Shown here piece after piece: positions 8,908 to 58,258 of a stretch of DNA of 64,000 bases. Numbering within the stretch: the first letter of the stretch is position 1; each line of letters starts with the position of its first letter. The position numbers were made by a program, and so were the translations under genes. The notes below the pieces were generated by a model. It saw nothing but the letters and a program-made list of their open reading frames with translations. It was not told where the DNA came from and did no database searches. This DNA is from an uncultured Lachnospiraceae bacterium (GTDB taxonomy: Bacteria; Bacillota; Clostridia; Lachnospirales; Lachnospiraceae), in the NCBI GenBank assembly GCA_949949005.1, contig CATLHM010000006.1, positions 1 to 64,000 of the forward strand, in the 5' to 3' direction.

Positions 8908-9669
8908 TCAGCGCTTTCCGTAAAAAAGAACGGCGGCATTTGTTTTTCCCTTTTTGCTGACGCTCTGCTGACCCAGATAGTCAAATCTTCCATAGCCCCT
9001 TGCGCTTACCCGGTCTCCCTGGGCCAGAGACACACTGTTATTTTCACAGATCCTGCCGTTTAAAAGCACCTTCCTCTGCCGGAAAAGCTCCAGGGCCTGA
9101 CTCCGGGAAAGCTTATACACCCTGGCCAGCACGGCGTCAATCCGCCCGGAAGCCACCTGGATTTGGATCTCCTGCCTGTCTGTACCTGCAAAATCAGGAA
9201 TCTCCCGGGTTCGGCTGCACAGGATAGAAGTGTGCTTTACTTTTCCAAGGTTTTCGGCAATAAAATCCGCCATACTCTCCAGGCAGAAAATATATCCCAT
9301 ATTTTCTATTATCCAAATATCCCCCAGAGTGCTTCTGTCAATCCCGAGATTCATAAGCGCTCCCAGAAAATCCCTGTGGCTGAGAGCATCTGCAAACTTG
9401 GCCGCCAGAGGCTTTGCGGCAATACAGGCAATCGGGAAGTCCTCCTCATACCCCAGCTCCTGCTCCCCTCCGAACCGAAGCATCACCCGCTCACAGAACT
9501 CGCTTCCGCCCCATATCTTATAAGGAACATAGGAAAGCTCCCTTTCCATCTCGTAAAAGCACTCCATATCCGCCGGGCCAAGAAAACCGGTAAAGGTGTA
9601 CTGGTTATTCTGATAGCATTTCCTCGCCAGCTCCCGCAGCCGTTTCTTAAGTAATTCTTCCGCTTCCAT
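8908..9669 (-). CDS. YlmH-like S4-domain RNA-binding protein
   Basis: This 253-residue protein has an N-terminal YlmH region (F.GFL.P.....E) and a C-terminal S4 RNA-binding domain (LSRSQALELFRQRKVLLNG, about residues 178-197, then SVSLAQGDRVSARGYGRF). In Firmicutes ylmH usually sits in the division/sepF cluster and the protein acts on ribosomes or septum-related RNA. Here it stands apart from division genes, which is unusual. ATG 9669 begins the recognised homology, and a purine-rich AAAGGA lies about 13 nt upstream. Confidence 0.82.
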   Translation of the reverse strand: MEAEELLKKRLRELARKCYQNNQYTFTGFLGPADMECFYEMERELSYVPYKIWGGSEFCERVMLRFGGEQELGYEEDFPIACIAAKPLAAKFADALSHRDFLGALMNLGIDRSTLGDIWIIENMGYIFCLESMADFIAENLGKVKHTSILCSRTREIPDFAGTDRQEIQIQVASGRIDAVLARVYKLSRSQALELFRQRKVLLNGRICENNSVSLAQGDRVSARGYGRFDYLGQQSVSKKGKTNAAVLFYGKR

Positions 9670-9788
9670 GATCTTACGCCATCCTTTCCCCAATCCCGGG
9701 CCTTCTCTTACGCACCTGCGCATTCCTTCCGCAATCCTGCACCGTCCCTTTTGCAGGCCCTTCTCTCAAGCTCTCACACGGCCGGGAA

Positions 9789-10748
9789 CTACCCCAAAGC
9801 CTTTTTTGCCATCATATAATAAACCCGGATTTTATAACCCGCATAGCCATAGAGATGATCCAGACCGCTATAGGTATAGCCTAAAAAGGCTTCCCTCATT
9901 CCCATCTTTCGCAAATGCCCTGTCCCGATACAGACAAGATTTACCGCAATATGCCTTCCCTGAAAGCTGCGCCTGACCGTGGTACAGCCCACGCTTCCGA
10001 TTTGCTTCTCCTTATCTTCCACCCCCACGATCAGGGTTCCTGCCACCTGGCCGCCCTGCGCCACTGCGATCAAGGCTCTCTCGTCACTGTCCTTCGCATA
10101 CAGACTCTCATTTTGGTAGTACTCTGTAAATTCCGGGCAGGCATCCTGCGTACACTCGCATATCTCCTTTAAGTCCCCCTGCTGCGCCCATCGGTAAGTG
10201 ATGCCCGAAATCTGATCGCCCATCCGGCATCCCTGTGCCTGAGGGGCTCCTTCCTCTGCATCCCCTGACACGGAAATCCCCTCTTCCTCCTTCCCTTGCC
10301 CGTAAAAGGGAACCATCATATCAAAACAATTACATTCCCAGGAATGGGCATATCCCCGTTTTTCAAAAAAGAGGACGGCCGACTCATCCAGATTTTCGTA
10401 AAGCCTCTCATTCTCCGCCTGAAAATACCGCCTGGAGGTGGGCACTCCCGGCATAAGATAATCGTGGCCGGCTCCGATCACGATTTCGCTAAAACCCCGC
10501 TCCCTGATCAACTGCTCGGATTTTTCCAAAAGCTCTGTACCAATTCCCTGGTTTCTGTACTTTCCGTCAACACATAGCATCAGCACGGCATTCCGGTGAA
10601 TCACCGACACTCCGATCAGCCCCTTCCCTTCCTCCCTTCGCTCCAGGACAACATTATCCCTGTGGCCTAAAATCTGCAAAACCGTGTCCTTCTTCCTTAT
10701 ATTAAAAGGAAAATTCCTTTCATATATCTCAAACAATGCCTGATCCAT
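9789..10748 (-). CDS. Tandem GNAT N-acetyltransferase
   Basis: This is a 319-residue protein with two GNAT-like halves. The first (about residues 20-150) has the acetyl-CoA loop YRNQGIGTELL. The second (about 185-319) has a weaker loop, RSFQGRHIAVNLV. A charged linker separates them. The acceptor is unknown. AAAGGAG is 6 nt before ATG 10748 (3 nt before ATG 10751). The upstream region carries a GC-rich hairpin (GCACCGC/GCGGTGC, about 10790-10810). In the orientation shown, the sigma-D promoter in the invertible segment points toward this gene. Confidence 0.82.
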   Translation of the reverse strand: MDQALFEIYERNFPFNIRKKDTVLQILGHRDNVVLERREEGKGLIGVSVIHRNAVLMLCVDGKYRNQGIGTELLEKSEQLIRERGFSEIVIGAGHDYLMPGVPTSRRYFQAENERLYENLDESAVLFFEKRGYAHSWECNCFDMMVPFYGQGKEEEGISVSGDAEEGAPQAQGCRMGDQISGITYRWAQQGDLKEICECTQDACPEFTEYYQNESLYAKDSDERALIAVAQGGQVAGTLIVGVEDKEKQIGSVGCTTVRRSFQGRHIAVNLVCIGTGHLRKMGMREAFLGYTYSGLDHLYGYAGYKIRVYYMMAKKALG

Positions 10749-10888
10749 CATTTACTCCTTTCCGGACAGCCAAATTTTCATAGCGGACAGCGCACCGCAA
10801 AGCGGTGCATGAAATCCTGGTTTCTTTATTTTACCATCTTTTCCGCCTTATGCGAAACAATATATTTCTTTTTTGCGTCCAGACGCAT

Positions 10889-10931
10889 AAAAAAAGGCGA
10901 ATGCAACATTCTGTTAACAAATGTTGCATTC
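10889..10931 (-). terminator. Left inverted repeat plus T-run: predicted terminator for the OFF-orientation sigma-D transcript
   Basis: Read on the minus strand, the left inverted repeat folds into a hairpin (arms GAATGCAACA and TGTTGCATTC, 13-nt loop). It is followed by GCC and seven T (10889-10895), the form of an intrinsic terminator. The matching right repeat is not followed by a T-run in the csrA direction. Seen in sequence; activity is inferred. Confidence 0.55.
10899..10931 (+). repeat. Left inverted repeat of an invertible DNA segment
   Basis: This 33-bp site has perfect 10-bp arms GAATGCAACA / TGTTGCATTC around the 13-bp core TTCTGTTAACAAA. Its reverse complement matches the site at 11778-11810 at 30 of 33 positions, including 12 of 13 core bases. 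The core is asymmetric, so the two sites are inverted relative to each other. This is the layout of tyrosine-recombinase inversion sites. Confidence 0.88.
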
Positions 10932-10947
10932 CCACCTGTTATTATAT

Positions 10948-10974
10948 TTATCGGATTAAGCCGGAAATACTTTA
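10948..10974 (-). promoter_or_regulatory. Sigma-D/sigma-28 flagellar promoter inside the invertible segment (currently facing away from flagellin)
   Basis: On the minus strand TAAAGTAT (10967-10974), an 11-bp spacer and TCCGATAA (10948-10955) match the flagellar sigma consensus TAAAGTTT-N11-GCCGATAA at 14 of 16 positions with exact spacing. It now fires leftward through the left repeat. Inverting 10899-11810 would move it to about 11735-11761 on the plus strand, roughly 90 bp before the csrA-like ATG and reading into flagellin. Confidence 0.85.
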
Positions 10975-11019
10975 GCATTAATTTCAAATTTTTTATATTT
11001 CTTTTTATTTCGACTACTC

Positions 11020-11604
11020 TTACAGGGAGATATTTTTGAATACATCATCCCTGTCATCCTGTTCAATCCCAAGATACCGCTTCGTAATCTGATAGGAAGA
11101 ATGGTTGTAAATATTCATCAACAAGGCGGGAGGCGTCCCCTGCTTCCATGCATGGTAGCCAAAGGTCTTTCGCAGAGAATGACAGCTCACATGATGGTGC
11201 AGGCCTACTGCCTCGGCCGCCTTTTTTATGACACGGAAAGCCTGACTGCGCCCTAATGGCCTGTTTGTGCCCTTACGGCTGGGAAACAGACAGGTTCCTT
11301 TTTCGGGAACAGGCGAAAGCTGATTCCTGTACGCGGTGAGAACCTCAACCACAGTCTGGTTTAAGGCGATGGTGTTGGGTTTGCCCGTCTTTCTCTCGAT
11401 CACAGCCAAATGCTCCAAAAAGCAACTCTTATCAAAATCATAAAGATCACCCCATCTTAACTCCAAAATATCCGTGATGCGCAGGGCCGTGTTAAGCCCC
11501 ATGATGCAAAGGGCGTAATTGCGGATGTTTTTCTCTTTTTCCAGATAAAAATCCTTGAACTCATGAAGTAATGCAGTATCCCTGATCGGTTGTGTTGTGC
11601 TCAT
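11020..11604 (-). CDS. Small tyrosine recombinase (putative DNA invertase of the flagellin switch)
   Basis: This is a 194-residue phage-integrase-family catalytic domain. The visible residues are Arg in ALRITD (about 43), HSLR (about 150-153), the second His in YNHSS, and the nucleophile Tyr in KRYLGI near residue 180. It lacks the usual N-terminal core-binding domain, like the short FimB/FimE-type invertases. It lies wholly inside a pair of inverted repeats, and no other prophage or conjugative gene is nearby, so a site-specific inversion role is more likely than phage integration. AAGAGGAAAAG precedes ATG 11604. Its own promoter is not obvious. Confidence 0.88.
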   Translation of the reverse strand: MSTTQPIRDTALLHEFKDFYLEKEKNIRNYALCIMGLNTALRITDILELRWGDLYDFDKSCFLEHLAVIERKTGKPNTIALNQTVVEVLTAYRNQLSPVPEKGTCLFPSRKGTNRPLGRSQAFRVIKKAAEAVGLHHHVSCHSLRKTFGYHAWKQGTPPALLMNIYNHSSYQITKRYLGIEQDDRDDVFKNISL

Positions 11605-11661
11605 CTTTTCCTCTTTTCTGCGCGGCTTTTATGGCCCGGCTCTACCGAGACTATCGTACGT

Positions 11662-11694
11662 CAAGTTTGCGGATCCCGCGCAGACACAAACTTG
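11662..11694 (+). repeat. Dispersed structured repeat, copy 1 (33 bp)
   Basis: An outer stem CAAGTTT/AAACTTG encloses an inner stem GCGG-ATC-CCGC. The same 33-bp design recurs at 58226-58258 with the inner stem changed to GTGG-ATG-CCAC, a compensated change. This copy lies within the invertible segment. Confidence 0.6.
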
Positions 11695-11777
11695 TATGGT
11701 GAACCGTCAAAATTCCGTTCTTGACCTTCACTCTACAGTTTCCTGGAACGGCCGTGTAACCGCAGCCGCCTTAATTA

Positions 11778-11810
11778 TAATGCAACTTTTGTTAACAGAG
11801 TGTTGCATTC
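11778..11810 (-). repeat. Right inverted repeat of the invertible DNA segment
   Basis: The partner of 10899-10931, with arms AATGCAAC and GTTGCATT around the core TTTGTTAACAGAG. It lies 40 bp before the csrA-like ATG. It overlaps a TATAAT-like hexamer (11776-11781) that lacks a convincing -35. Confidence 0.88.
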
Positions 11811-11850
11811 AAAACAGGCAGGGATTGCTGAAAACGACAAGGAGGTTATC

Positions 11851-12303
11851 ATGCTGAGACTTACAGTGAGCACAGAAGAATATCTGATGATCGGGGAGGA
11901 TATCAAGCTGGTATTTCTGGGCGGAACGGGAAATCACCTGAGAATTATGGTAGAGGCACCCAAGGAGAAGAACATCGTCAGGAGTACCGTGCTGGAGCGG
12001 AATATCACAGCCCCACAGCAAAGGGCAAAGCTTCCCAAGTACTATGCACAGCCGGAGCATCCGGAGAAATATGTAAAAAAAGTTTCACCAGGTAATAACC
12101 GGAGGGCCCAGCGCCGCATCAAAAGCCAGGCAGAAGGGCAGTTCGGTCATTATAGAAAAACAAAAAACATTCACACCGATGTAAACGGACTTACATCAGG
12201 CAAAGCCAAGGAGGTAAATTATGGTAGTACAACACAATTTAACAGCAATGAATTCCAACAGAATGCTCGGTCTGACCACAAAATCACAGGCCAAATCCAC
12301 TGA
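11851..12303 (+). CDS. CsrA-like RNA-binding regulator with C-terminal extension, overlapping flagellin
   Basis: Residues 1-50 align without gaps to CsrA: MLRLTV start, IGEDIKL (14-20), a central G-x-G-N-x-x-R-I strand, EAPK (35-38) and the RNA-contacting Arg at position 44. CsrA in Firmicutes blocks flagellin translation by binding GGA motifs. Unlike the usual 60-75-residue CsrA, this one runs to 150 residues with a basic, low-homology tail. Its last 83 nt overlap the flagellin start in another frame. Arg6/Arg7 of classical CsrA are absent. AAGGAGG is 6 nt before the ATG. No fliW (CsrA antagonist) is in the window. Whether the tail is functional or mere open frame is unclear. Confidence 0.78.
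   Translation: MLRLTVSTEEYLMIGEDIKLVFLGGTGNHLRIMVEAPKEKNIVRSTVLERNITAPQQRAKLPKYYAQPEHPEKYVKKVSPGNNRRAQRRIKSQAEGQFGHYRKTKNIHTDVNGLTSGKAKEVNYGSTTQFNSNEFQQNARSDHKITGQIH
12178..12214 (+). promoter_or_regulatory. Candidate CsrA-binding hairpin and SD of flagellin mRNA
   Basis: A perfect 7-bp stem GATGTAA/TTACATC presents the loop ACGGAC (12185-12190), a classic GGA-in-loop CsrA target. A second GGA lies in the Shine-Dalgarno AAGGAGG (12208-12214), 7 nt before the flagellin ATG. This two-site layout resembles the known CsrA control region of Bacillus hag mRNA. Confidence 0.65.
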
Positions 12304-13879
12304 GAAGCTCTCTTCCGGTTACAAGATCAACCGCGCGGCGGATGACGCGGCAGGACTGGCAATCAGTGAAAAAATGAGAAGACAGGTCAGAGGGCTGACC
12401 CAGGCTTCCTTAAACGCGCAGGACGGTATCAGCGCAGTGCAGACGGCAGAGGGCGCTCTCACCGAAGTACACGACATGCTCCAGAGAATGAATGAGCTGG
12501 CAACCAAGGCCGCCAACGGAACAAACTCTGACGAAGAGCGCGAGTATATCCAGAGCGAAGTGGATGCCCTGATCTCCGAAATCGACCGTGTGTCCGAGAC
12601 CACCAAGTTTAATGAGCTTTATTTGCTCAAGGGCGGAGAAGGTGATTCTGCCGCAGATACGGCGGCTGTTAAAAAGACCGTTTCTATGAATGCTGAGGCA
12701 AAGAAACTGGCGGAGATGACCATCAGCATCAAGGCAACAGCGCCCGGCAATGCATATGGTGCAGGTGAAACAGATGCCGTTACAGCATCCAGTGGGGCAA
12801 CTACAGCATCTATGGCATTGAATGCAACTGCAATAGCCGCTCTTGGCGGTGGGGGCAAAGTGCTTTGCGCAAGTAGTGATGGTACAGATGCCAATATGGT
12901 AGAATTAACGGCAGCTAACCTTGATCAATATTGCGAGGTAGATGATGATGGTAACGTGACCGCAAAGGCCGGCGTAAGCTTTGCCTATGGCAATAATGAA
13001 GCTGCGGTAAAAGCAGGTGGTGGAACAGCAGTCACCGACGTAACAACTGTAGTAGCCGGTACAGCCGCTTCAGATGCAACTACGGGCACTCTCGACAAAT
13101 ATGTAGAATTAGATGAGAACGGCCAATTAAAGTACAAGGATGGCGCAATGCTATACAAAGTAGCCGCTGATGCAACCGGCCAGCATGGAGCTCAAACACC
13201 TCAAACAGGTGCTCAACAGATTGAGGAAGGTAATTTGGGTGACTATTTTGAGGCGAAAGGAAACCCCATCTCTTTTACTGAAGATAACGGTGCCACCTAT
13301 AAAGCTTTGGCCGAAAATACCGATATGTTGACCTACTTTGATGAGTTTGGCGTATACAAGGGAGGTCTCTATCTGGAAGATAATGCCGGCAATATGAAAG
13401 AAATCGGCGCTGAGCAGATCGAAAAATATTTCGATTTTAAGAACGCGGACGGTTCCGAAGGCGGCTCTGCAGTACCGGTGCTGGAATTCACACTCCATGT
13501 TGGAGCAGAGGGCAATATGGACAATACAATCGGCGTAAAGATTGAGTCCATGAGCTCCGCTGGAATCGGGGTTGACGGCTTAGATGTCCGCACAGAGGAC
13601 AGCGCAAGAGAGACGATCGAGACTCTCAAAGGCGCGATCAAGAAGGTTTCCCAGCAGCGTTCCGACCTTGGTGCAGTTCAGAATCGTTTAGAGCACACCA
13701 TCAACAATCTGGACAACATTGTGGAGAACACCACCGCTGCAGAATCCCAGATCCGCGATACGGATATGGCTACCGAGATGGTAAGATACTCCAACAACCA
13801 GATCCTTGCACAGGCTGGCCAGGCCATGCTTGCACAGGCAAATCAGTCCAACCAGGGCGTTCTGTCTCTGCTTGGTTAA
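12221..13879 (+). CDS. Flagellin
   Basis: This is the 552-residue flagellar filament subunit. The conserved N-terminal D0/D1 (residues 1-140: HNLTAMNSNRMLG, KLSSGYKINRAADDAAGLAI) and C-terminal D1/D0 (about 450-552, ending in GVLSLLG) frame a long variable domain of about 300 residues rich in Ala, Thr and Asp. This is longer than minimal flagellins of about 270. There is no signal peptide, as expected for type III flagellar export. It is preceded by AAGGAGG and the csrA-like gene, and followed by a strong terminator. No other flagellar genes are present. Expression likely needs the promoter in the upstream invertible segment. Confidence 0.97.
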   Translation: MVVQHNLTAMNSNRMLGLTTKSQAKSTEKLSSGYKINRAADDAAGLAISEKMRRQVRGLTQASLNAQDGISAVQTAEGALTEVHDMLQRMNELATKAANGTNSDEEREYIQSEVDALISEIDRVSETTKFNELYLLKGGEGDSAADTAAVKKTVSMNAEAKKLAEMTISIKATAPGNAYGAGETDAVTASSGATTASMALNATAIAALGGGGKVLCASSDGTDANMVELTAANLDQYCEVDDDGNVTAKAGVSFAYGNNEAAVKAGGGTAVTDVTTVVAGTAASDATTGTLDKYVELDENGQLKYKDGAMLYKVAADATGQHGAQTPQTGAQQIEEGNLGDYFEAKGNPISFTEDNGATYKALAENTDMLTYFDEFGVYKGGLYLEDNAGNMKEIGAEQIEKYFDFKNADGSEGGSAVPVLEFTLHVGAEGNMDNTIGVKIESMSSAGIGVDGLDVRTEDSARETIETLKGAIKKVSQQRSDLGAVQNRLEHTINNLDNIVENTTAAESQIRDTDMATEMVRYSNNQILAQAGQAMLAQANQSNQGVLSLLG

Positions 13880-14186: not shown

Positions 14187-14429
14187 ATGCAAGCGCAAGT
14201 AAAAGAATGGGGAAGCAGCCAGGGAATCAGACTATCAAAAGAAATACTGAAAAGTGCTGGAATTGCATTGAATGAGATTTTGGATGTTACGGTATCAAAC
14301 GGCGTAATTACTTTAACAAAGTCATTTCGCCATAAAACTCTGGAAGAAAGAGCTGCGGAGTTTGACGGGGAATTAATGCTTGACGGCGAATATGACTGGG
14401 GCGAACCTGTTGGAAGAGAGGTGTGGTAG
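14187..14429 (+). CDS. MazE-like (AbrB-fold) antitoxin
   Basis: This is an 80-residue protein of the AbrB/MazE family: VKEWGSSQGIRLSKEIL (residues 5-21) is the swapped-hairpin DNA-binding domain and the acidic tail is the toxin-binding part. AAGGAGG precedes ATG. Its stop overlaps the GTG start of a MazF-like frame that carries a nonsense codon, so the antitoxin may be an orphan. It probably still represses its own promoter. Confidence 0.87.
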   Translation: MQAQVKEWGSSQGIRLSKEILKSAGIALNEILDVTVSNGVITLTKSFRHKTLEERAAEFDGELMLDGEYDWGEPVGREVW

Positions 14430-58225: not shown

Positions 58226-58258
58226 CAAGTTTGTGGATGCCACCCAGACACAAACTTG
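58226..58258 (+). repeat. Dispersed structured repeat, copy 2 (33 bp)
   Basis: Same 33-bp design as 11662-11694: outer stem CAAGTTT/AAACTTG, inner stem GTGG-ATG-CCAC. Confidence 0.6.

Follow-up and report, generated by a model that had tools for sequence, protein, structure and literature searches.

A putative self-contained inversion switch with a sigma-D promoter at a csrA-flagellin locus of Lachnospiraceae

RESULTS

Gene content of the locus

The window analyzed here is a stretch of 64,000 nucleotides (contig CATLHM010000006.1, GenBank assembly GCA_949949005.1, positions 1 to 64,000) from an uncultured Lachnospiraceae bacterium, whose genome is a MAG of 3.0 Mb and 59.2% completeness. It contains the sole flagellin gene found in this incomplete MAG. 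A csrA-like gene precedes the flagellin gene, and upstream of both lies a segment of about 0.9 kb with a recombinase gene and a sigma-D (sigma-28) promoter between two inverted repeats (Table 1). Genes for sigma-28 and FlhA are present in the MAG on another contig.

Table 1. Features of the switch unit in the window
Feature	Position	Strand	Basis and remarks
Left (outer) recombination site	10899..10931	.	near-palindromic; together with the T-run next to it, resembles a terminator hairpin on the - strand
Sigma-D/sigma-28 promoter, TAAAG-N15-CCGATA	10949..10974	-	directed away from csrA-flagellin (OFF); position and sequence conserved in relatives
Tyrosine recombinase, 194 aa, catalytic domain only	11020..11604	-	Pfam Phage_integrase 3.6e-25; R42, K72, H142, R145, H168 and Y177 intact
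Right (operon-side) recombination site	11778..11810	.	inverted-repeat search and letters
CsrA paralogue ORF, 150 aa, domain in residues 1-50	11851..12303	+	PF02599 1.4e-15, 57.5 bits against a cut-off of 27
Leader hairpin GATGTAA-ACGGAC-TTACATC, GGA in loop, CsrA-type site	12178..12198	+	letters and covariation in relatives
Flagellin Shine-Dalgarno AAGGAGG, the second GGA	12208..12214	+	23 nt downstream of the hairpin GGA
Flagellin, 552 aa	12221..13879	+	PF00669, PF00700

An inverted-repeat search of positions 9500-13000 returned one pair of arms of 32 nt with 94% complementarity (10899-10930 and 11779-11810); the other five pairs listed in this interval were only 14-18 nt long and 83-88% complementary. 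Counted by letter, the two 33-bp repeats match at 30 of 33 positions, the figure given in an earlier sequence-only reading of this DNA. Each repeat is itself near-palindromic, a feature absent from that reading, with 11-bp arms around a 9-bp centre, and thus looks like a complete recombination site. That reading had also placed a short tyrosine recombinase between the repeats and named a CsrA-like gene, followed by flagellin, as the target, and the Pfam matches in Table 1 agree with all three assignments.

The promoter motif TAAAG-N15-CCGATA has two perfect matches in the window (shuffle mean 0.02). The match inside the segment fits what we take to be the longer sigma-D consensus, TAAAGTTT-N11-GCCGATAA, at 14 of 16 positions with an 11-bp spacer, and it runs from 10974 to 10949, away from csrA and flagellin, as had been read before. 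By arithmetic, inversion would bring the end of its -10 element to position 11760 (+), facing in and 91 bp before the csrA ATG, where about 90 bp had been predicted. The second perfect match, at 13300-13325 (+), lies within the flagellin coding sequence; a function there is unlikely, and its presence is unexplained. On the + strand between 11605 and 12220 we found no sigma-70-type match that could serve csrA and flagellin without the switch.

Three further features were noted. The window csrA ORF overlaps the flagellin gene by 83 nt, while its relatives are mostly 80-100 aa long; this extension is either a lost stop codon or a real overlap. An element of about 35 nt lies inside the segment upstream of the recombinase gene (11661-11695); it is also seen at 58226-58258 of the window, has six other copies at 87-94% elsewhere in the same genome, and looks like a dispersed palindromic repeat. 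A small ORF at 14187-14429 has a sub-threshold match to a MazE antitoxin (19.1 of 24.7 bits).

Orientation of the segment in related species

In its own MAG the switch unit was found in one copy and one orientation (OFF), with no second copy or orientation. A scan with the recombinase, limited to one genome per species, gave 147 relatives, and the best 80 of these 147 loci were read; adding the window and the second unit of L043 gives 82 entries. Most of the 80 loci read hold the same unit as the window. The closest recombinases are from records labelled as Lachnospiraceae MAGs, and several labelled Acetatifactor stand further down the list. In a sample of 397 family genomes that includes the window's own, the recombinase has a match of 1e-25 or better in 40.

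A csrA or flagellin target lies within 2 kb in 76 of the 82 entries, and a site pair is present in 69. The refined scan called 67 entries OFF and 6 ON and left 9 without a call. An initial ON call for L083 came from a chance promoter match inside the recombinase gene, and the refined scan reads this locus as OFF. The six entries with no target within 2 kb (L012, L025, L066, L073, L078 and L081) may have other genes as targets or may be truncated at contig ends.

A strict set was defined by (i) a target, (ii) a site pair, and (iii) a promoter matching at least 10 of 11 positions, with L019 set aside. It comprises 64 units including the window and leaves out 18 entries, the 6 without a target and 12 with one (L019, L021, L023, L024, L026, L032, L033, L036, L048, L055, L058 and L059), nine of which, L019 among them, had an OFF call. 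The sequence-only reading had pointed to related genomes as the place to look for both orientations; the strict set holds 58 units in OFF and 6 in ON, counts that are not independent events because the loci are related. In architecture A the promoter is on the strand of the recombinase gene and in architecture B it is opposite to it, which divides the set into 53 A-OFF, 5 B-OFF, 4 A-ON (L014, L054, L064 and L086) and 2 B-ON (L075 and L080). The B sites read GTAACA, not TGCAAC, in the loci seen. Segments of strict units are 719-2007 bp long.

The window's three nearest relatives with a readable target (L010, L011 and L013) are all OFF. So are the nine units with a call in records not labelled as MAGs, a group in which L048 is weak and three units (two on L043, one on L051) share one contig. 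That contig, from isolate B63, carries a row of several switch units with main-type flagellins, and all its called units are OFF. Both orientations were seen across different species, not within one species.

Alignments between sister species were informative about how the two orientations relate. Positions 986-1725 of L054 (ON) align forward to 4951-5689 of L051 (OFF), which are the outer edges of both site pairs; for csrA and flagellin the alignment runs the other way. The same break, with the segment in one direction and csrA/flagellin in the other, is found for L086 (ON) against L085, L087 and L056. It is found again for L080 (ON) against L071, where L080 has csrA but no flagellin in the stretch compared. 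Since the site-to-site segment and the operon align in opposite directions, the segment turns over as a block relative to the operon between related species; such block inversion is shown by at least three sister comparisons.

Identical site centres and an intact recombinase

Of the 69 entries with a site pair, 40 have two sites that conform to TGCAAC-N15-GTTGCA when few variants are tolerated. The seven central positions of the left site are the same as those of the right site in 40 of 40 pairs (0/280 mismatches), although these positions vary widely between loci, whereas the eight shoulder positions differ at 58 of 320 within the same pairs. Site detection favoured similar pairs, a bias not specific to the centre. 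Tyrosine recombinases require identity in the crossover region. With this requirement, the identical centres point to recent exchange between the two sites in many loci.

The residues R42, K72, H142, R145, H168 and Y177, which we take to be the catalytic R, K, H, R, H and Y, are invariant in 87 of 87 distinct recombinases. The enzyme matches only the C-terminal part of XerC/D models and scores 42.3 and 35.1 bits against the NCBIfam tyrosine-type DNA invertase models (cut-offs 222 and 221). A sequence search for structurally solved relatives found none at 0.001.

The earlier proposal of a self-contained inversion switch gains support from both orientations in relatives, flipped segments in sister species, identical site centres, invariant catalytic residues, and sigma-28 and FlhA in the MAG. 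On this comparative sequence evidence, we consider it highly probable that the unit is a self-contained phase switch that turns an alternative flagellin ON or OFF. Against such a switch, OFF predominates so strongly that flipping may be rare or some of the loci may have decayed.

The CsrA paralogue

Canonical CsrA (85.7-92 bits, about 72 aa) is present in 30 of the 37 genomes of a genus survey, and FliW is encoded beside it in the same 30. Switch-type CsrA (57.8-65.1 bits) occurs in 13 of the 37, and the recombinase (at least 54% identity) also in 13; the two coincide in 12 (Fisher p about 9e-8, the genus genomes being treated as independent). The exceptions, G022 and G025, are both found about 310 bases or less from a contig start. 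Left out of these counts were four CsrA-like hits scoring 33-53 bits (G006, G028 and G033) and the hits below the cut-off. Five genomes (G006, G015, G020, G030 and G034) have two switch-type csrA genes each. In the 59%-complete window MAG neither FliW nor canonical CsrA was found, which incompleteness may explain.

Among 78 distinct switch CsrA sequences, R44 is kept in all 78, position 4 is L in 66 and M in 12, position 3 is R or K, and all 78 have V, L or M at position 6, never R. Thus the RNA-binding positions L4 and R44 are kept, while R6/R7, which presumably have an RNA-binding role in CsrA, are not. The window protein is below both NCBIfam CsrA equivalog cut-offs (35.4 of 73 and 30.1 of 70.1 bits). 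The canonical C-terminal tail is absent, the switch-type tails differing from the six canonical tails compared. By these sequence criteria, we assign switch CsrA to a separate paralogue family.

The flagellin leader

Flagellin starts were located by an N-terminal pattern, which gave 69 distinct leaders with GGAGG, three main-type leaders on L051 included. A GGA lies 14-38 nt upstream of GGAGG in 66 of the 69 (shuffled upstream parts: mean 29, maximum 40). With this GGA picked by distance alone, a nine-pair stem around it is paired in 457 of 594 cells, against 352 in column shuffles (sd 7.4, maximum 378) and against 139/462 to 228/594 when the stem is slid by 1-3 positions. An earlier count in which the GGA was picked by best stem gave 388 of 495 (55 fragments). 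A-U, C-G, G-C and U-A interchange at the inner stem positions, and the three outermost pairs are weak. The loop reads ACGGAU in 30 of 66 leaders and AAGGAU in 15, both close to the CsrA SELEX site as given in the sections of PMC7652899 available to us. We regard the leader as a covarying GGA-loop hairpin of CsrA type and a putative CsrA site.

There are at least two possibilities for the target of the paralogue. It may act on its own message, as set out below. In the second, the DNA switch is the same but the paralogue acts in trans like Salmonella FljA: in ON the main flagellin would be repressed and the filaments swapped, and the hairpin of the switch flagellin would be read by the main CsrA. 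Two observations fit action in trans. Main-locus flagellin leaders also have a GGA-loop hairpin before the Shine-Dalgarno sequence (four read), and the tail missing from the paralogue is the part of CsrA that FliW reportedly contacts in B. subtilis (PMC7652899, in the sections available), so the paralogue may be FliW-blind. The loops differ, however: the four main leaders, found by pattern among ten stretches, read AGGGAA (3) or AAGGAA (1), and the switch leaders mostly ACGGAU or AAGGAU. Moreover, G015 and G020 have switch units, and neither canonical CsrA nor FliW was found in them; the paralogue there cannot depend on either, assembly gaps aside. We consider action in trans possible but rather unlikely.

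Fate of the OFF transcript

On the - strand, the left site forms a 13-pair stem followed by GCCTTTTTTT. The region has two terminator-like matches and shuffles average 2.0, so the window's match alone is not evidence. The 56 of the 64 strict units with both site ends placed are more telling: a T-run of at least 5 comes after the outer site in 39 of them, against 4 with one after the operon-side site, and the mean number of T in 16 positions is 9.3 against 3.8 (signed-rank p about 1e-10, units taken as independent). The outer site and its U-run may terminate the OFF transcript.

The segment might alternatively be a two-way switch whose present orientation drives a gene on the other side, here a GNAT gene, or another flagellin. 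The GNAT gene of the window does face outward, 147 nt beyond the site, and its transcription in OFF is thus possible. At L019 (4794-5895), one segment lies between two outward flagellins that are 79% identical, with no csrA hit between them, and its promoter (10/11) is directed to one of the two; this locus is an either/or flagellin selector. As a general rule, a two-way switch was rejected, with L019 the clear exception: among 60 units, only 19 have their nearest outer ORF pointing outward, against 41 with it pointing inward, and outer-gene families have at most two members in these 60. The T-run after the outer site also argues against it, and we think a two-way role for the window unit improbable. 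Together, the outer T-run and the mostly inward, unconserved outer ORFs suggest that transcription in OFF usually ends at the site.

That the unit, real in relatives, is a decayed or locked relic fixed in OFF in the window genome would suit the OFF-only state of the window and its three nearest relatives and the long csrA ORF overlapping flagellin, but it is very doubtful: the catalytic residues, the promoter, the leader hairpin and the reading frame of the flagellin are all intact, the two site centres are identical, and no sigma-70-type match on the + strand between 11605 and 12220 could replace the switch.

Model of the switch

In the self-contained ON/OFF switch that we favour, the enclosed tyrosine recombinase would exchange strands across the 7-bp centres of the two inverted sites, and the segment of about 0.9 kb would flip with the recombinase gene and the sigma-D promoter on it; both steps are suggested by the species comparison. 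In ON, sigma-D RNA polymerase would cross the right site and transcribe the csrA-like gene and flagellin. In OFF, the orientation as assembled, the promoter would fire outward, and the transcript probably ends at the left site, where the U-run after the predicted hairpin lies outside the segment. The GGA-loop hairpin stands about 20-31 nt before the Shine-Dalgarno GGA in the flagellin message, and the co-transcribed CsrA paralogue most likely binds both the hairpin GGA and the Shine-Dalgarno GGA, limiting flagellin translation. The four main-locus flagellins have a sigma-D-like promoter 171-216 bp upstream, imperfect in one. Where relatives also possess a main fliW-csrA locus, a fixed sigma-D promoter already serves one filament, to which the unit would add a second, phase-variable one.

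DISCUSSION

Among gut antigens and TLR5 ligands, the flagellins of Lachnospiraceae are prominent. If many of them are phase-variable and mostly OFF in assemblies, the presence of a gene does not mean that the protein is made, and flagellin and antibody surveys would need to be read by orientation. Coupling an invertible promoter to a dedicated CsrA and an RNA leader would also make the unit a compact natural system in which to study how CsrA paralogues stay apart, and the identical-centre rule would let active switches be recognised from sequence. In a survey of Eubacterium and Roseburia flagellins (PMC3720852), the main text, as far as available, has "recombinase" and "phase vari" zero times and "invert" once. 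We recognised no description of this unit in the open-access literature consulted, which covers subscription journals poorly; one could exist elsewhere. A broader proposition, which we would as readily doubt as accept, is that the unit is a widespread, independently evolved gut counterpart in Lachnospiraceae of Salmonella phase variation. It would combine a flipping sigma-D promoter, a matched CsrA paralogue and flagellin kept apart from the FliW-controlled main flagellin, a site that doubles as the OFF terminator, and multi-unit genomes that combine filaments at random.

The Salmonella fljB promoter is sigma-28 dependent, and FljA is not a CsrA. In Salmonella, hin and the fljBA promoter share a segment of about 1 kb between hixL and hixR (PMC9368917, in the passages available to us). 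The sequence-only reading knew of no described example of such an arrangement; this was too wide, because Hin/fljBA already has its recombinase gene inside the segment, along with the promoter that serves an operon of flagellin and repressor. As far as that source goes, the likeness extends to a recombinase gene and promoter between inverted sites, an operon of flagellin and a repressor gene, and a length of about 1 kb. The machinery differs: Hin belongs to the serine recombinases and works at hix sites together with Fis, whereas the window unit has a tyrosine recombinase (Phage_integrase) and other sites. Unlike in fljBA, the regulator gene comes first, belongs to the CsrA family and is followed by a flagellin with a CsrA-type leader.

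The fim switch controls fimbriae, and its genes lie outside the segment. E. coli FimB/FimE are, like the window enzyme, short tyrosine invertases, though the invertase models match the latter at scores far under their cut-offs.

In C. difficile, the flg switch (Cdi4) is inverted by RecV, a tyrosine recombinase, and controls flagellar genes; it consists of 154 bp between 21-bp repeats, after a riboswitch in the flgB operon leader, with recV elsewhere and the early flagellar operon including sigD under its control (PMC5386303, from the sections available). The window unit shares with it a tyrosine recombinase and a probable inversion at flagellar genes but has its recombinase inside a far longer segment, as do the strict units.

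In the B. subtilis Hag-FliW-CsrA system, CsrA covers the Shine-Dalgarno sequence of the flagellin mRNA (PMC6529632 and PMC7652899, in the parts available). The window leader is similar, with its GGA-loop hairpin and a GGA in the Shine-Dalgarno sequence, but the window CsrA is a second, divergent paralogue with another tail, linked to an invertible promoter, and no FliW is encoded beside it. The window unit thus differs from the known switches in enzyme class, sites, regulator, RNA leader and outer U-run, and from Salmonella also in host group.
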